The position numbers and the translations under genes are program-made. Below are positions 25,353 to 33,786 of a DNA stretch of 37,613 bases, piece by piece. Below the pieces are notes generated by a model. It did no database searches, was not told the DNA's origin, and worked only from the letters and a program-made list of their open reading frames with translations. Location of the stretch: positions 1 through 37,613 of the forward strand of contig DAOWID010000186.1 of NCBI GenBank assembly GCA_030641115.1, given 5' to 3'. Source of the stretch: Planctomycetota bacterium. Its GTDB lineage: Bacteria > Planctomycetota > Phycisphaerae > Sedimentisphaerales > Anaerobacaceae. Numbering within the stretch: the stretch's first letter is position 1; the number at the start of each line of letters is the position of its first letter.

Positions 25353-26561
25353 TTAGTGACTCGTGCCCTCGAGCCACTTATCAACTATGATTTTAAGGTC
25401 ACCGAAATTCACCTCTCCGTTGCGGTCACGGTCGGCGCCGTTGCACCAGGAACAGGCGGTACAGCCGGAATCACGCCAATTATCCGCTAAAAAAGCGAAG
25501 TCGGCAAAGTCCACACCTCCGTCGAGGTTCAGGTCTCCCGGACTAATCAGCTCACCAAGAACCGTGAGCATCTCCCCGGCGTATGCGTAGTACACTGAAC
25601 CTTCCTGGCAAAGGTGCTCCCAGACCTTGCCTTCCGAGCTTATGGAGTCAAGCAGGACCTGACGCCCGGCAAGGATGGCATCGTCCACCTCCAGCACCGG
25701 ATTTGCGCCGGATGCAGCAATAAGTCCAAGTGTGCCAAAAATCGTACCTTCCGTGTAGCCGCTCACCGCCTGACCCGAGCCGCCGTCACCATGGTCGAAT
25801 CGCCAATAGAAAGCCCCTTCGCCGGGGACCTGGTGGCCGGCAAGAAGACCCGGCAATGCGGCTAAGGTCACCAAATTCCAATATGGCCTGCCCGTTCCAG
25901 AGGGATCTACAAACGTGGCATCAAGGGGCCCGGTTCGCGCCAAGGCCCAGGTTGCAACACCGAGAGCCATCGTCGGCAAGCTCGAAGAGTCATCATCAAC
26001 CTGGGCGAGCCAATCGATCAGTCCTTCCCGCCAGATCTGCTTATCTTCGGCGCCAACGTAGAAGGCGGCAATCGTGTGATGTGCCATGTAGAACACCGCT
26101 GTGGATGGCTCCGTGCCTCCAAACAGAGAGATGTAACCGACAGTACCATCAACATCACGCTTCACATTATAATAGAAATCGCTCACCGCCGTCCGCCAGA
26201 CATTGCTGGCGGGGTCGCTCGAAATTTCGCTCAAACCGGTCAAGGCAAAGGCCTCGTCACCATAGAAGTTGCCACCAGCGGCCCAAAGAATGTAGTCCCC
26301 ACCCAATTCAGCGGAATCCTTGTAGAAACCGTCGCAGGTCAGCTCATAGGCACTGGCCATTCCAGCGACAATTGAGCCGGTAAAGTCGGCTTCCGTCGGC
26401 CAGCTTCCGGTACTAGCGCCGCTCTTTATCTGTTCGGCATCGAGTCTGTCTGCAACAGCCTCAATTGCCTCACCGATAGACGAAGCCAACAAGGGCGATG
26501 CGCTAAACATTAGCACCACTATGACAACTCCATTCCGAATAATTCGCCATCGTTGACGCAT
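25353..26561 (-). CDS. Exported alpha/alpha-toroid-like protein with dockerin-type C-terminus
   Basis: A 402-residue protein with GGAGG 8-10 bases before the ATG and a signal peptide (IIRNGVVIVVLMFSASPLLAS). Residues 28-340 are helical repeats with WPTEADFTGSIVAGMASAYE, GGDYILWAAGGNFYGDEAFAL and TMALGVATWALARTGPLD, reminiscent of the toroid fold of terpene-cyclase and polysaccharide-lyase families. No catalytic motif is certain. Residues about 345-402 form paired dockerin-like calcium repeats (DLNLDGGVDFADFAFLADNW and DRDRNGEVNFGDLKIIVDKW) ending WLEGTSH. It is closely similar to the upstream gene over the whole toroid domain, but that copy carries a PEP-CTERM tail. A matrix or polysaccharide-binding role is inferred from context. 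Confidence 0.75.
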   Translation of the reverse strand: MRQRWRIIRNGVVIVVLMFSASPLLASSIGEAIEAVADRLDAEQIKSGASTGSWPTEADFTGSIVAGMASAYELTCDGFYKDSAELGGDYILWAAGGNFYGDEAFALTGLSEISSDPASNVWRTAVSDFYYNVKRDVDGTVGYISLFGGTEPSTAVFYMAHHTIAAFYVGAEDKQIWREGLIDWLAQVDDDSSSLPTMALGVATWALARTGPLDATFVDPSGTGRPYWNLVTLAALPGLLAGHQVPGEGAFYWRFDHGDGGSGQAVSGYTEGTIFGTLGLIAASGANPVLEVDDAILAGRQVLLDSISSEGKVWEHLCQEGSVYYAYAGEMLTVLGELISPGDLNLDGGVDFADFAFLADNWRDSGCTACSWCNGADRDRNGEVNFGDLKIIVDKWLEGTSH

Positions 26562-26641
26562 TCTATGTTACCTCCTTGAGTGCATTTCCAGTTTTCAACG
26601 GAATGCAAATCTGAAACTGTGACAACTTAAGACTACAACTG

Positions 26642-27682
26642 TCACGCTAACTTGTTACGTTTTCGCCTGAGCAACAGCATTCCCGTTCCCAACAATAGCA
26701 GTGAGACGGGCTCAGGAATAACTTGAAGTACTTCGCCGCCATAGGTGTAGTACGAGGCCCCCCCTGACCATGTGTGTTCGTAAACAATGCCGGTTGAAGC
26801 TACACCCGAAGCCAGCGCTATTCTTCCTGCCAGGATGCCACCGGTAGAACCACTGCTCGCAATAAGACCCAGAATGCCAAAAACGGCATCTTCCGTGTAG
26901 CCACTCGCCTCATAACCCGGACCTGCCGCAGTATGGTCGAACCTGTGATAGAAAGAGCCTGCGTACGCGCCGGAATCGGCCTGGTGACTGCCAAGAAGCC
27001 CCGCCAAATCGCTGAGGGCGACACCCTCCCAGTAGGCTTCACCGACAAGGCCAAACGGATCTACCCTTGTCTCGTCCATCGGCCCTGTCTCTGCAAGTGC
27101 CCAGGTTGCGACGCCTAAGCTCATGACCGGATAGAGAGCTTCATCGTCAGCGATCTTGGAGAGATACTGAATGAGACCCTCACGCCAAATTCCTGCGTTC
27201 GCCGCCCCGACCATGTCCGCTCCAACCGTATGCTGCGCAACGCAAAACACCGCGTTCGAACGATCTGTACTCCGAAAACCGGCGATGTACGCAAATGTAT
27301 CGAGGCTGTCATAGAAGCTCTTCGCCGCATTAGCATAGCTCGAATCGCCCGTAATCGCAGAAACCCTGGCCAATCCATAGGCTTCGTCACCGTAGAAGTT
27401 GCCTCCTGCTGCACCAACAATGTAGTCTCCGCCGAGCTGCGCGGCGGTTCTGTATGCGGCTTTGCCGGTGATTTCATAGGCGTTCGCCAGCCCTGCTACA
27501 ATCGAGCCCGTGAAGTCCGCTTCACCCGGCCATGCCCCGTCAAGACTTTGCTCGTTTACCAACCGGTCCCCTATGGCTTCAATCGCCTCGCCAATCGGCA
27601 ACGCCATAGCAGTATTTGCGACGCTTGCCGCAAGCAGCATTCCAACGGTACAGATAGCTAATAGTAATCGCTTCATCATCAT
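26642..27682 (-). CDS. Exported alpha/alpha-toroid-like protein with PEP-CTERM sorting signal
   Basis: A protein of about 346 residues. Three ATG codons in a row (27682, 27679, 27676) follow GGAGG at 27686-27690. The frame runs open to an ATG at 27724 that lacks a ribosome site, so I place the start in the cluster. The signal peptide is KRLLLAICTVGMLLAASVANTAMA. The toroid-like body shares IGEAIEAI.DRL, WPGEADFTGSIVAGLANAYE and GGNFYGDEAYGL with the downstream gene. The C-terminus is a canonical PEP-CTERM signal: VIPEPVSLLLLGTGMLLL followed by RRKRNK. It should be exported and processed by an exosortase encoded elsewhere. It stands at the head of the matrix and EPS genes, with its own promoter. 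Confidence 0.85.
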   Translation of the reverse strand: MMMKRLLLAICTVGMLLAASVANTAMALPIGEAIEAIGDRLVNEQSLDGAWPGEADFTGSIVAGLANAYEITGKAAYRTAAQLGGDYIVGAAGGNFYGDEAYGLARVSAITGDSSYANAAKSFYDSLDTFAYIAGFRSTDRSNAVFCVAQHTVGADMVGAANAGIWREGLIQYLSKIADDEALYPVMSLGVATWALAETGPMDETRVDPFGLVGEAYWEGVALSDLAGLLGSHQADSGAYAGSFYHRFDHTAAGPGYEASGYTEDAVFGILGLIASSGSTGGILAGRIALASGVASTGIVYEHTWSGGASYYTYGGEVLQVIPEPVSLLLLGTGMLLLRRKRNKLA

Positions 27683-28044
27683 AATCCTCCATTGCCCTGT
27701 TTCTGTTTCTTTGGTTGAATACACTCCATCAAACCATATATATTGTTCTTCTGTATTTTCCCGATTACAGAAAGACGTTAGAAAGAAAACCCTACACTCC
27801 TACACCTCATCCGTTTGCAACCTTTCTGTTGCTGATAGTCAACAATAGTACTTTCCTATTATACCATAAATTCGAGAGTCGCAACTGTGGAAACTACGTA
27901 TTTTACGTCATTTGCCTATTTTCACGCCAAAATGGGCGATTTTTCCGCAAAAAATTTTTTAAAAAAGCCAGAAATATGGAAAAAACCACCGGAGAAAACA
28001 AAACATTGCCCCAAGAAAGCGATATTACTGTACTGTCCCGCCGG
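27683..28044 (-). promoter_or_regulatory. Promoter and leader region of the PEP-CTERM gene
   Basis: This 362-base gap has a perfect minus-strand -10 box TATAAT (27863-27858). A weak -35 (TTGCGA 27884-27879) gives a short 15-bp spacer. The transcript would have a leader of about 165 nt containing a hairpin GCAAC 27817-27821 with GTTGC 27828-27832. The stretch 27930-27965 is extremely AT-rich and may hold the end of the response-regulator transcript. No gene is seen. Confidence 0.45.
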
Positions 28045-28635
28045 CTAAGCCAGCTTCATCTCGATCGCTCGTTTGACCAGGTTGACCACACTGTTGACAC
28101 CAAACTTTCTCATGATACGGCTGCGGTGCACTTCAACGGTTCTTACGGAACGTTTGAGCAAGTACGCCATTTCCTTGTTGCTCTTGCTCTCTAAGATCAA
28201 ACGCAGAATTCTCATTTCCGCCCGGGTGAGCGATTTGTCCAAAAGCGAATCAGGCGGACTAATCCGCCTTAGTGTGGACTCAACAGCAGAGAGCAAGGCT
28301 TGTCTTTCCAGGGGCTTTTCCATGAAATCGTCCGCTCCTTTTTTGAAGGCCTTGACAGCTATCGGCACGTCGCCGTAGCCGGTCACAAGCAGAACCGGCA
28401 CCCATGGTGCGCGACGTTTGACCTCAGTCAACAATTCTATGCCGTCCATTTCGGGCATTTTCACATCAGTGATGAGTAAATCGCACTTCTGCAAATCGAA
28501 TTGTTTGAGGCAATCGGCTGCGCTGGCGAAACACCTAACTGCGAAGCCGTTTTGCTCGAGAGTCCCGCCGACGGCCTTACGTACACCTGGCTCATCATCA
28601 ACAAAAAAAATATGTTGTTTTGCGCTGCTTGTCAT
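28045..28635 (-). CDS. FixJ/NarL-type response regulator
   Basis: A 196-residue protein. The receiver domain has the acidic pair DD13-14, the phosphoacceptor Asp57 in LLITDVKMPEMDG, Thr85 in VTGYGD and Lys107 in MEKPL. The C-terminal LuxR-type helix-turn-helix begins near residue 135 (LTRAEMRILRLILES) with KRSVRTVEVHRSRIMRKFGV as the recognition part. Phosphorylation should promote dimerisation and DNA binding. No histidine kinase is adjacent, so it is an orphan in this window. Its position at the head of the EPS locus suggests it controls that locus. A short 57-codon frame ends by ATGA overlap with its start, but that frame arises from the disrupted gene upstream. Confidence 0.92.
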   Translation of the reverse strand: MTSSAKQHIFFVDDEPGVRKAVGGTLEQNGFAVRCFASAADCLKQFDLQKCDLLITDVKMPEMDGIELLTEVKRRAPWVPVLLVTGYGDVPIAVKAFKKGADDFMEKPLERQALLSAVESTLRRISPPDSLLDKSLTRAEMRILRLILESKSNKEMAYLLKRSVRTVEVHRSRIMRKFGVNSVVNLVKRAIEMKLA

Positions 28636-28725
28636 TTTCTGCCTGCTGAACTTAACCCGCCTTCGCCGGGGACTTTTAGCTGCCCGGCTTCGCTATATTG
28701 CCCAAAATAACAAATTCCTATACTA

Positions 28726-29078
28726 TCAAGTTCCGCACCACGATTGCGAAGATTGGCCATCCCCTTCGGTATTTCCGGTCTCCGTTTCCACTCCTCCATT
28801 ATCATGTTCTTTAAGCCTTCTGCAAAATTACAGGTTAGGCCTACTTAGAAAAGAAAAAATCGTTTTTTGATTTTTTCTTTTTAACAGCAATGTATTCTGC
28901 CGTAAGTGGTTAGCTGATTATTGAAGAAAATCATAAAAAAGATTTTCTTCAACAATATAGGCCTAACCTGCAATTTTGCAGAACTCATATGTTCTTTTGC
29001 CTGCTCAACCAACTGCCTCGCTCCATCGGCATCTAAAGCAAGACCCCTAAATGCCTTGGTGTACAGCGGATTACTCAT
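28726..29078 (-). pseudogene. 55-codon gene interrupted by a MITE-like element
   Basis: On the minus strand a frame begins MSNPLYTKAFRGLALDADGA at 29078 and reaches AKEH at 28989, where the inserted element starts. If 28804-28988 (the element plus one copy of the 9-bp duplication) is removed, the frame continues from 28803 as DNGGVETETGNTEGDGQSS and stops after SWCGT with TGA TAG (28728-28723). The 9-bp duplication is exactly three codons (K-E-H), so the join is in frame. With the insertion, translation runs into the element and ends after a junk tail near 28881. The family of the 55-residue product is unknown to me. Confidence 0.6.
28813..28988. mobile_element. 176-bp MITE-like element with 26-bp terminal inverted repeats and 9-bp target duplication
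   Basis: Inverted repeats 28818-28843 and 28958-28983 match over 26 bp with one mismatch; they begin TTCTGCAAAATT and end CAGGTTAGGCCTA. Flanking direct repeats ATGTTCTTT (28804-28812 and 28989-28997) look like a 9-bp target-site duplication, leaving 5 unpaired bases at each end. Inside are two strong hairpins: 28849-28861 with 28869-28881 (13 bp, A/T tracts) and 28921-28932 with 28941-28952 (12 bp). There is no transposase, so a non-autonomous element is inferred. Confidence 0.7.
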
Positions 29079-29193
29079 TATAACCAGCATTTAGGTACTT
29101 TAGGTAGAATAGCATAGTTAGGTGGAATAGTCAATATTACATTCTAAAGATTTTCGACAAATTCGGAGCGCCCTGTATTTACCAAAAGGCTGA

Positions 29194-29457
29194 CCTGACG
29201 GCCAGAATTGCTCTTCTGAAGTTGCCGAAGTCGGCTACCGAGTCTGTCTGTTAGCTTTTGCCGGCCTTACTACGATTCCCATAACATTAGAAAGGCCCGT
29301 ATTTGCACTATTTGATCAGAGGTCACAACTTCTGATTGGAGGATGCGCTCTGGTCCTCGCCTATCTCTTCGTCAGAACAAAGTCACTGCTGGCCCCGATC
29401 CTCTTCCACGGCATGGCAAATACCTGCTACGCCATCACGGCAGCAGCCCTCGCCTGA
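29194..29457 (+). pseudogene. C-terminal fragment of a CPBP-family intramembrane protease
   Basis: An open frame without a start codon reads VGYRVCLLAFAGLTTIPITL, then LLIGGCALVLAYLFVRTKSL immediately followed by LAPILFHGMANT, and stops at 29455-29457. The R-T-x-S-L-L-A-P-I-L-x-H-x-x-x-N pattern is the last conserved motif of CPBP (Abi/CAAX protease-like) membrane proteins. The Glu-Glu active-site motif and the N-terminal helices are absent, so this is a decayed remnant. It is too short for confident family assignment beyond this motif. Confidence 0.5.
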
Positions 29458-29620
29458 AGCTGCCGAAGCACAATTCTGTGCCCGCAAGTCTGAACTTGTC
29501 CTGACCCGCCGCTGTAAAGTTCGCCGGCCACTGCGCTAACTCCCACCTTTTCCCGCAACTTCCCGCCCTTTCCCACCAAACGCTCCTACGTCCCCGGCAC
29601 CGAGATTATCCAGGAGGACC

Positions 29621-32041
29621 TTATTTTTTCATCGTCCGACACTCATAAAGGCCGCCGGCGGTTCTCCAGGCGTGGGCCTTGAACTTGACGGTAACCCTGG
29701 TTTTGCCCTTAGTCAATTCCGCGGGAATGTCGTAAGTTTCAGTGAAGAACCTGCCGGGGTGATTTTGATTGAGGTCCTCGGTGGCGATTTTTTTGTCGTC
29801 GATGAGGATGTCGAAGTCTCGATCGGGCCCGTCGGAACCCCAATAGAGGCAGGCGAGCCTAACGGGGGTATCAGGCAGCACTTTCATCTCAAAGCTGAAC
29901 CAGCCGCCGGACCTGGCGTCGCGCCAGTGGCGGTTGCGAAAGAGGCCCTTGTGCGTATTCTCGCCTTTGAACTCGTGGTCGCGTTCGGGCTGCATCTGGC
30001 CGAGCACAATGTGGTCGATAGTGCGGGCCTCGAGCGCCTTGCCTTCGGCCCGCTCGGCCCCGAAGCGATCCTTCATTGCCTTCCAGTCCTCCTGACTGAA
30101 CCTATCCCAATACACCATATATCGCTGATAGTGCATCTTGTAGAATGGAATAAGTCTCATATCCTCGCTCTTGTCCACGCCGGGTGTTCTCAATACCGAG
30201 CCGGTCATAACAAATGTCCCCGGTTCACCGCGCGCCCTGAGATAATCCCCAATCCTTTTCTCGCCCGCTACCAGTACCGGTATAGGCGGCGAAGGGACCT
30301 GGTCAAATTTGCCGCGATTCTCGGCGTGGGGGTCAATATCCTCGATACCATCGATGCCCAGTGCTCCGGCAAGCAGAACCGGCCCATAGAAAAATGCGAC
30401 CTTGTTGGGATTGTCCGGCATAGCTTCGGTGCGGAGCTTCATCGCGAGGACGAGAGCGATTTGATCACCCTTCTTCCACGTTCGTTCGACGGTCATATAA
30501 TCGCCGGGCGACGTGGTGACGAGGTGCGGCTTGTCGTTGACTGAGAGCTTCACATCGTCCGTGGCCCAGTGCGGGCGGCGGATTTTCACGGTGAGCTTGA
30601 GCGCCTTATCAGTAACAAAGCTGAGTTGAACACGACCATCGAGGGGATAGCGGGTTTGCTGTGTAACAGTAAGGCCCTTGTCTCGATAGTTTAGCACCGA
30701 TGGGATAAAGAGGTTCACGTACAACGCGGCGGCGTCATAGAAGTAGATGCTGTCGCCGTACTTCACGTGGTTTTCCATACCTGTACCGGTGCAGCACCAG
30801 AAAGAATCGTAAGGTGTGTTGTACGTCTTGAAATGCCCGGACTTCAACGGGCAAAAATATATCATCATCCCCTGTTCCGGGTCCTGGGAAGCAAGAATGT
30901 GATTGTACAGGGCCCTTTCATAGTAGTCTGCATATCTTGCGTGAGGGGCCATTGCGAAGAGCTGGCGCGTGAGTTTTAGCATGTTGTGGGTATTGCAGGT
31001 CTCAGTGGTGTGCACGCTGAGGTGCTTGCTGAAATCTTTCGGCCCGAAGAAATACTCGCCGTCCGTATTGCCGCCGTTGACGTATGTGCGATTCCGGACA
31101 ATCGTCTCCCAGAAGAAGGACGAAGCTGTGTTGTAATGGTCTTTGCCGGTGAGTCTGTAGAGTCGGGCCAGCCCGATTAGCTTGGGAATCTGAGTGTTGC
31201 TGTGCAAACCGGTCAGTTTGTCTTCTTGGCGGGCAAGCGGATCGAGCACACGGTGATGATAGAACCTCTCCGCGAGCTTAAGGGCCTTTTCATAACCGGT
31301 AACGGCATAGATCTCGGCAAAGGCCTCGTTAATGCCGCCGTGCTCGCAGTGCAGCATTTTCTCGAGCTGCTCATCGGTCAGGCCTCCGACCATGTCCCAG
31401 GCCCAGTCGGTGGATTTAGTCAGAATATCTTTCGTTTTTTCATTGCCGCAGTACAAGTAGGCATCGACCAGACCCATATAGAGCTTGTGCAGGTTGTACC
31501 AGGGGACCCAGATTCCGTTGAGGTCGAAGCCTTTTGAGCGGATATCGCCGGCCTTTATCTCGGCGAATACTTCCCGGCAGCGTGGAAACCCGCCCACAAA
31601 GCCATTGCCCCAGGCCTTCTGGCATTCAGTTAGTTCATCGACGATGTAATTGACGCGATCGAGCAGGCGCTTATCGGCGGTGGAGGCGTAGAGCTTCGAT
31701 ACGGCGGTAAGATAGTGCCCCAGAGAGTGGCCTGAGATGGTGGCGGTTTCCCAGCCGCCGTAGGTCTCGGCTTTGGGCTTTAGGCCGGCAAACTCGCGAA
31801 AACGCGATAGGAACCGGTCCGGCTCTAACGACAGCAGGTATTTGGCGTCAAGCTCCATCGCGGCCTTGAAGGGACTATCCAGAAGACGAACGTCACGCAG
31901 GCCAAAGGCATAGGCCTTCTGCGGGGCTTTGTCTTTCACCTCCAGCGGCTGATTCGCCACCAGTGTATCGGCCCGGACATTCACGCATAGACTCGCCAAT
32001 AAAGAACCTATCACCGTTAAGAGGTATGCCTGTCTTGTCAT
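29621..32041 (-). CDS. GH127-family beta-L-arabinofuranosidase-like enzyme
   Basis: An 806-residue exported enzyme (signal peptide about 1-24, QAYLLTVIGSLLASLCVNVRA). It has the (alpha/alpha)6 barrel motifs of GH127/DUF1680: SGHSLGHYLTAVSKLYA, HSNTQIPKLIGLARLYRLTG, the ETCNTHNMLKL segment near residue 347, and FWCCTGTGMENHVKYGDSIY near 411-430. The Cys pair and the Cys/Glu of these segments correspond to the zinc-coordinated cysteine nucleophile site described for HypBA1. The C-terminal 200 residues form beta domains. It probably removes beta-L-arabinofuranose from plant glycoproteins or pectin. It is the second gene after the GH43 gene, with a 50-base gap, so the two are likely co-transcribed. 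Confidence 0.9.
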   Translation of the reverse strand: MTRQAYLLTVIGSLLASLCVNVRADTLVANQPLEVKDKAPQKAYAFGLRDVRLLDSPFKAAMELDAKYLLSLEPDRFLSRFREFAGLKPKAETYGGWETATISGHSLGHYLTAVSKLYASTADKRLLDRVNYIVDELTECQKAWGNGFVGGFPRCREVFAEIKAGDIRSKGFDLNGIWVPWYNLHKLYMGLVDAYLYCGNEKTKDILTKSTDWAWDMVGGLTDEQLEKMLHCEHGGINEAFAEIYAVTGYEKALKLAERFYHHRVLDPLARQEDKLTGLHSNTQIPKLIGLARLYRLTGKDHYNTASSFFWETIVRNRTYVNGGNTDGEYFFGPKDFSKHLSVHTTETCNTHNMLKLTRQLFAMAPHARYADYYERALYNHILASQDPEQGMMIYFCPLKSGHFKTYNTPYDSFWCCTGTGMENHVKYGDSIYFYDAAALYVNLFIPSVLNYRDKGLTVTQQTRYPLDGRVQLSFVTDKALKLTVKIRRPHWATDDVKLSVNDKPHLVTTSPGDYMTVERTWKKGDQIALVLAMKLRTEAMPDNPNKVAFFYGPVLLAGALGIDGIEDIDPHAENRGKFDQVPSPPIPVLVAGEKRIGDYLRARGEPGTFVMTGSVLRTPGVDKSEDMRLIPFYKMHYQRYMVYWDRFSQEDWKAMKDRFGAERAEGKALEARTIDHIVLGQMQPERDHEFKGENTHKGLFRNRHWRDARSGGWFSFEMKVLPDTPVRLACLYWGSDGPDRDFDILIDDKKIATEDLNQNHPGRFFTETYDIPAELTKGKTRVTVKFKAHAWRTAGGLYECRTMKK

Positions 32042-32091
32042 TTTTGCTCCATTCTAAGAAGGTTTTTCGTCAGTTCCTGCACAATAAGGGA

Positions 32092-33786
32092 TCAGATATC
32101 TGATAATCCCCTTCCGCTCTGCCCTTGTTCGCCTGCTGAACGGCCTTTTGGGCCATCATAGTCGTAACGAAAGTAATCGATGTCGATATGGCCCTCGGCC
32201 ATCCTGTCATTCCAGCAGTAGAAGCCGAGCCTGTCGCCACGCCAGCGGCCGAACTTCAATTGAAACTCTTCGCCAAACGGCTTATAGGTCTTCCCGTCCA
32301 GGCTGTATTCGTAAAAGGCCTTATCACCATCGTTTTTCGCGCGGTAGTAAATCACATCCTTGCGGATCACCGGCCCTTCCTTCACCTTGCCGTTGTTGTT
32401 GAAGACCAGCCTCTTGTTTCCATCATCGTCCACGCTAATTCCAAGCAGCACGTATTGACCGCTGTGACGGCAGAATCCTGCCTGCTGGCCCGGTTTCATC
32501 CCGCTGATATCTACTCTCGCTGTCACCACGCCTTTGCCTTTGCCCATCAATCGCTGGCTGATCGTGTTACCGGCATTCCAGAATCCTCCATTGTTCACCG
32601 GAACGTTCGCCTTCAAACGCAAGGACCCCGGACGCTCCGTCAAGCTCCAGCGGTCATCGCGTGGGTTGTGGTTCCACTCCCACTGCGGCCCGAGCTTCGC
32701 TGCTTCAAACTCGTCGTCGGTCTGCGGCGCATCGATGGGATATCCCTGAATCGGCTTTTTCCACTGGTGTACCGTGTTGCCGATTCCATTGCCGTCCGGA
32801 TCCTCGCCCAGCACCGGCCAGCCGTCCTGCCACTTCACCGGGATAAGCCACTGCGAACGGCCTTCATACGAGCTGCCCGTCGTTCTGCCGGCGAATGTCC
32901 CCTTTATCTTTTCGCGGTGCTGCACTAATTGGTGAGAATACCACCAGGAACCCTCAGCCGCCTGTACGAGTGCTCCCTGGCAGACACTACGGCTAACGCC
33001 CTTGCCTCGCTCCATAACGATTCTGCGCTCGAACGGGCCGTAGATGCTCTTTGAACGCAGAACGAGCTGTTTGCGGTCGCCCTCGATCCACTCGGCCATG
33101 AAAATGTAGTAATACCCATCGATCTTGTATATCTTGGCTGCTTCGGCGCCATGCCCGTGATAAATCACTTTGCCTTCGTCAAGAAGCGCCTTGCCGTCCC
33201 AGCTCATCCTGAACAATCGTGTCTGATTCATCTCATAAACAGGATCACGTCCGAAGTTACATACCAGGTAGGCCTGCTTTTCATCGTCATCCCAGAACAC
33301 TGCCGGATCCGTCCAACGTGTTTTCTTGAGCATGCAGATCGGCCTCGACCACGGGCCCGTGATTTTGCCGGCGGTGCTCATGTAGAGGCCTGATTGGGTA
33401 TCGATGAAATAGCAGTACCAGCGCCCGCCGTGATGGCCCAGGTCCCCGGCCCATACGCCAACGCGATAGCCCGACATCCGGTCGAAGTTGTATCGGGGCT
33501 CCCAGCTTAGCTTGTCAAAAACGTGACCGATTATTGTCCAATTCACCAGATCCTCCGACTCCAGCAGCGTCATGCCGGGGGCGTAATGGTTGGTCGATGT
33601 GATCATGTAGTAGGTGTCACCGGCCTGTTCGATGTCCACGTCGGGATAGTCGGCATTGAGAATCGGATTCTTGTATGTCCCATCTCCCTGATCACCCCAC
33701 GAACCAATCTGCGGTTCTCCCCGACCGTTGCAACTGAGCGCCGCAATAAACAGCAAGCTAATGAGTTGACATTGCCCCTTTGCCAT
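32092..33786 (-). CDS. GH43-family glycoside hydrolase (beta-xylosidase/alpha-arabinofuranosidase-like)
   Basis: A 564-residue exported enzyme (short signal peptide CQLISLLFIAALSCNGRG). The five-bladed beta-propeller motifs are YKNPILNADYPDVD (Asp catalytic base near residue 46), RWTDPAVFWDDDE (Asp modulating pKa, about 159) and GHGAEAAKIYKIDGYYYIF (Glu acid, about 212). The C-terminal 200 residues are a beta-sandwich of the GH43 C2/DUF1349 type (LGPQWEWNHNP, AGFCRHSGQY). It should release arabinose or xylose from arabinoxylan or arabinan. It is first in a two-gene unit with the GH127 enzyme, which fits joint removal of arabinose side chains. No transporter or regulator is adjacent. Confidence 0.9.
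   Translation of the reverse strand: MAKGQCQLISLLFIAALSCNGRGEPQIGSWGDQGDGTYKNPILNADYPDVDIEQAGDTYYMITSTNHYAPGMTLLESEDLVNWTIIGHVFDKLSWEPRYNFDRMSGYRVGVWAGDLGHHGGRWYCYFIDTQSGLYMSTAGKITGPWSRPICMLKKTRWTDPAVFWDDDEKQAYLVCNFGRDPVYEMNQTRLFRMSWDGKALLDEGKVIYHGHGAEAAKIYKIDGYYYIFMAEWIEGDRKQLVLRSKSIYGPFERRIVMERGKGVSRSVCQGALVQAAEGSWWYSHQLVQHREKIKGTFAGRTTGSSYEGRSQWLIPVKWQDGWPVLGEDPDGNGIGNTVHQWKKPIQGYPIDAPQTDDEFEAAKLGPQWEWNHNPRDDRWSLTERPGSLRLKANVPVNNGGFWNAGNTISQRLMGKGKGVVTARVDISGMKPGQQAGFCRHSGQYVLLGISVDDDGNKRLVFNNNGKVKEGPVIRKDVIYYRAKNDGDKAFYEYSLDGKTYKPFGEEFQLKFGRWRGDRLGFYCWNDRMAEGHIDIDYFRYDYDGPKGRSAGEQGQSGRGLSDI

Follow-up and report, generated by a model that had tools for sequence, protein, structure and literature searches.

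Among the described elements closest to the one characterized here is QMITE2 of Coxiella burnetii, which, in the part of its report drawn on here, has direct repeats of 7-9 bp, terminal inverted repeats (TIRs) of 23-29 bp, and a core of 113-145 bp with a strong predicted fold (PMC10969869). The Correia repeat enclosed element (CREE, or NEMIS) of Neisseria is reported to be a small element that has inverted repeats and a conserved core and can affect adjacent genes (PMC2649163). MITEAba12 of Acinetobacter is AT-rich and 113 bp long, with 16-bp TIRs and 9-bp target site duplications (TSDs); it folds weakly (-24 to -27 kcal/mol) and is moved by a co-resident IS, and its parent IS is known (PMC6382973). 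REPIN/RAYT systems are reported to consist of modular palindromes, which occur in single and double forms (PMC3116915).

The element studied here lies in a window of 37,613 nucleotides, the whole stretch that was analyzed (contig DAOWID010000186.1 of assembly GCA_030641115.1, order Sedimentisphaerales). It occupies 176 non-coding bp (28813-28988) and is flanked on both sides by a perfect copy of ATGTTCTTT (28804-28812 and 28989-28997). Read with hairpin A first, it runs along the minus strand. The 26-bp TIRs, which differ at a single position, are located at 28818-28843 (left, plus strand, TTCTGCAAAATTACAGGTTAGGCCTA) and 28958-28983 (right, minus strand). They enclose two perfect or near-perfect inner hairpins on the plus strand, both of which covary in relatives: hairpin B (28849-28881), with a 13-bp stem, and hairpin A (28917-28956), with a 16-bp stem. 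A preliminary description of this DNA had proposed a MITE-like element with these coordinates, inverted repeats, hairpins, and ATGTTCTTT flanks, and all of these were confirmed. The outermost 5 bp, however, are unlike between the two ends (AAGCC at 28813-28817, CTCAT at 28984-28988), which counts against a MITE. On balance, we put the probability at about 88% that this block is one copy of a family of non-autonomous DNA transposons (MITEs) of Sedimentisphaerales and Phycisphaerae, and that no small gene was disrupted by it.

Likened by description, the element has nearly the same plan and size as QMITE2. The host is unrelated, however, and the covarying, paired inner hairpins are a feature of the present element that is not reported for QMITE2 in the part of the source used (PMC10969869). 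MITEAba12 is similarly AT-rich with a 9-bp TSD, but it is shorter, has shorter TIRs, folds weakly, and has a known parent IS. Neisserial CREEs are present in many copies, have a 26-bp TIR, and duplicate TA upon insertion. The first two features are shared by the present family, as are the small inverted-repeat build and conserved core reported for CREE; the family has two inner hairpins, however, and a TSD of 9-10 bp instead of TA, and membership of the Correia elements was rejected on the latter point. REPINs carry a tetranucleotide tag and are not known to duplicate their target. The modularity of their palindromes, which can be single or double, resembles what is found here, but the clear 9-10-bp TSD led us to reject this membership as well. 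TIRs, a TSD of fixed length, and copies that are short, non-coding, numerous, and mostly intergenic are characteristics of prokaryotic MITEs, and these were found; mobilization by an autonomous IS with matching ends is a further one, discussed below. The Sedimentisphaerales family adds to this known kind, with inner hairpins that are unusually well conserved. MITEs are poorly described in Planctomycetota, and our literature search returned no report of one for Sedimentisphaerales.

Copies in the source genome and its relatives

Further copies, which the preliminary description had proposed looking for together with a full-length IS sharing the ends, proved abundant. The source genome (4.31 Mb, 490 contigs) gave 90 forward and 95 reverse matches to the TIR pattern and none to a reversed control pattern; the copy number of about 90 derives from such sequence and pattern searches. 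Full-element matches within this genome are 81-87% identical to the copy at 28813-28988. The element was matched in 21 of 148 related genomes, the source genome included, one of the 21 belonging to another family of the order, and a scan of named genomes detected it in MAGs of Sedimentisphaerales and Phycisphaerae. A Firmicutes MAG (L266) also gave a match, which was put down to chance, the element being absent there. The identification as a MITE was thus borne out by the copy number, the TIRs, the TSDs, and the presence in relatives.

Copies range from 173 to 201 bp in length, have no coding capacity, and keep the 26-bp TIRs wherever they are full. By a simple ORF criterion, 38 of the 39 copies tested are intergenic; many adjoin a start codon, and the copies occur in both orientations and next to differing genes. 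TSDs in the family measure 9-10 bp. Among the 52 copies with readable flanks, a 9-base TSD was perfect in 14 and agreed at 8 or more of the 9 positions in 25, compared with 0.2% for mismatched flank pairs. Some copies carry no recognizable TSD, which speaks against the MITE reading. The high copy number, the conserved termini, the 9-10-bp duplications, the intergenic placement, and the hairpins that keep their pairing nevertheless argue for a mobile MITE family. Twenty-seven copies of equal length from the source genome, picked by similarity, lie on average 2.5% from their consensus, and this low divergence of the closest-matching copies suggests that amplification there was recent.

Forms of ~55-60 bp that lack the interior (L249, L257, and L351-L353) and a form with one hairpin (L354) exist as well, so persistence of the element does not strictly require the inner hairpins. 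The forms without interior are mini-palindromes, in which the two TIRs alone are fused head to head (L249:3119-3162, L257:1685-1728, L351, L352, and L353). Together with solo ends, these are untypical products of a MITE and count against that reading. Eight loci (L033, L038, L048, L052, L121, L124, L130, and L133) belong to a subfamily whose hairpin A has TCCGCC-NNN-GGCGGA, with loops that vary, in place of its inner half. The copies at L132:1401-1738 and L121:3179-3520 harbor another inverted-repeat element, which has TGTAACCGTTCACAGGG as its ends. At L251 and L253, an IS-like sequence that begins with GGGCTTGCTGAACAAGTC interrupts a MITE arm near TAAGTA, and the junction at L255 is similar.

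Contig JAGMDR010000132.1 of MAG RS_18_13, which belongs to another genus, matches positions 25560-33559 of the window at 99.9% identity. The element and its flanks are also found, at 100% identity, in genome G012, which is assigned to a different genus. The other MITE copies of G012 are 93-97% identical to the copy at 28813-28988, versus 81-87% for most copies of the source genome. Given this closer match, one of these two MAGs may have received the contig through mis-binning.

Candidate agents of transposition

The 9-10-bp duplication and the long TIRs point to a DDE-type transposase acting in trans. Such an enzyme would recognize the ~26-31-bp ends, cut out or copy the element, and insert it through staggered cuts of 9-10 bp, mostly into intergenic leaders. 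The full-length IS sharing these ends did not turn up, which counts against the MITE reading: neither DDE_Tnp_1 loci nor unpaired ends yielded an autonomous IS with matching ends. Absence is weak evidence here, however, since fragmented MAGs such as these can easily lack an IS that is present in several copies. The transposase types covered, in 6-9 genomes, were DDE_Tnp_1, Transposase_mut, and DUF772, with the scripted end-scan confined to DDE_Tnp_1 loci; Transposase_mut and DUF772 proteins had no match in the source genome. Unpaired ends that were considered as parts of an autonomous IS proved to be solo TIRs, mini-palindromes, contig breaks, or copies with another repeat nested inside, and those of G056 were MITE copies into which another IS-like sequence had inserted.

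Covariation of the hairpins

On its own, the MITE strand folds with a z-score of -12.5 as RNA and -11.0 as DNA. Full copies, of which 26 from many genera were aligned (alignment A1), fold as an outer stem with two inner hairpins. Changes on both sides that preserve pairing were found at 23 of the 55 pairs, amounting to 120 cells across genera versus 34 ± 5 after shuffling; the share of cells that pair is 97.0%, compared with 88.7% in shuffles. As the relatedness of the rows inflates the comparison with shuffles, more weight is given to a second control, in which pairing fell to 37-55% once the partners were shifted by one to three columns. Recognition of both ends by one transposase may be enough to make the outer stem covary, an explanation that does not extend to the inner hairpins.

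The very stable fold, the compensatory changes in the stems, and the frequent placement beside start codons would be expected of a leader or terminator-like regulatory RNA that has been domesticated and is selected at each site, beyond being a mere transposon copy. The stems and TIRs also diverge less than the spacer, although the rate for the TIRs is biased by how the copies were picked. We consider such a role unlikely, as the copies lie beside differing genes, in both orientations, and with target duplications, and as no Rfam family exceeded its gathering threshold in the window. Moreover, a rough hand count from the pair table gave ~21 G-U cells against ~16 A-C cells, with double Watson-Crick changes (the 120 cells above) dominating. 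Typical RNA selection would leave a different pattern; with G-U hardly exceeding A-C, pairing at the DNA level or correction by template switching appears to fit better.

Template switching within quasi-palindromes is a documented mechanism (PMC8794818). By correcting the arms, it would uphold the pairing through mutation and produce covariation without function, which is compatible with the MITE reading; we give it slightly less than even odds. Besides the predominance of Watson-Crick double changes, it is favored by the exchange of whole inner stems for new palindromes, as seen in L175/L176 and in the TCCGCC..GGCGGA subfamily, and by a compensated change in hairpin A that is private to one copy of the source genome (L019). 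Lineage-specific master copies under selection, however, would leave the same trace. More tentatively, the three-way junction of outer stem and two hairpins, which has zero- and one-hairpin forms too, might be needed for movement or for survival in single-stranded DNA and be kept by Watson-Crick double changes across the order, or it might be a record of template-switch repair that upholds the hairpins in ~90 copies per genome. As the MITE family offers many parallel copies, of varied ages, of a single covarying hairpin structure, it enables a sharp test of selection versus template switching in the stem changes.

The regulator and the restored reading frame

On the minus strand, a gene just downstream of the element encodes a FixJ-like response regulator (28045-28635; Response_reg and GerE domains in Pfam). 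Directly upstream of this gene, between it and the MITE, stands a second interspersed repeat of 85 bp (28648-28732, plus strand; GAACTTAACCCGG...ATCAAGTT), which is unrelated to the MITE and has copies at 94-97% identity in G012 and G043. In the form GAACTTAACCCGGCTTCGCCGGGG...ATCAAGTT, this repeat occurs at 7 places in G012, the present site included, and at 4 in G043, with no evident target duplication. Upstream of the MITE, a sigma-70-like promoter candidate (TTGACT-17-TATTCT with TG before the -10; 29106-29134, minus strand) reads towards the regulator; as 3 such patterns were found where shuffling predicts 1.6, it is suggestive only. The MITE landed between this likely promoter and the regulator gene, so that a transcript from the candidate promoter would bear the very stable double hairpin in the leader RNA of the regulator. 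Judging from position, an effect of the MITE on expression of the regulator is plausible.

The preliminary description had also claimed that the insertion interrupts a 55-codon gene upstream of the regulator (28723-29078, minus strand), which becomes one continuous frame ending in a double stop once the element and one duplication are removed. That frame exists as described, with an ATG at 29078 and the stops TGA TAG at 28728-28723, and its ATG lies 28 bp downstream of the promoter candidate. Its codon score (0.128 bits per codon) is within the range of real genes, whose median is 0.108, and just above the off-frame 95th percentile of 0.120, which makes it a weak point in favor of a gene. The homology searches, the origin of its stops, and its ordinary length argue the other way, however. 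In 89 genomes of the family, the same contig in G012 aside, no homologue of the restored protein was found (next match E = 0.027), no Pfam family was matched, and the uninterrupted 55-residue protein that might have been expected upstream of FixJ-like genes in relatives has no related frame near 28 such regulators. The most revealing point is that the last codon and both stops fall within the second repeat. In dinucleotide-preserving shuffles, a spanning frame of at least 55 codons appeared in 56% of cases, and in 24% with ATG first. We conclude that the frame is probably not a gene, and that interruption of a genuine one by the MITE is very improbable.

Nor is the claimed frame singled out by the sequence, since the restored site is spanned by four start-to-stop frames, of 70, 59, 55, and 35 codons. 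The 59-codon frame is the claimed one with an earlier in-frame ATG, and the 55-codon frame in this list is a distinct one, on the plus strand with a TTG start. The 70-codon frame competes with the claimed one, and its end overlaps the regulator by ATGA; it was rejected as a gene, since its matches elsewhere are copies of the second repeat at the DNA level, most of them with stops. The correspondence of the 9-bp duplication to three codons (K-E-H) had been offered as evidence for both the insertion and the gene, but this reasoning is circular, because the pre-insertion sequence is recovered by excising any insert together with one duplication, however long the latter is. The locus serves as a warning that a small ORF restored around an insertion can turn out to be pieced together from several repeats. 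At 29200-29457, on the plus strand, lies the debris of another gene, a truncated C-terminal fragment of a CAAX protease (Rce1-like, PF02517, E = 2.3e-6).
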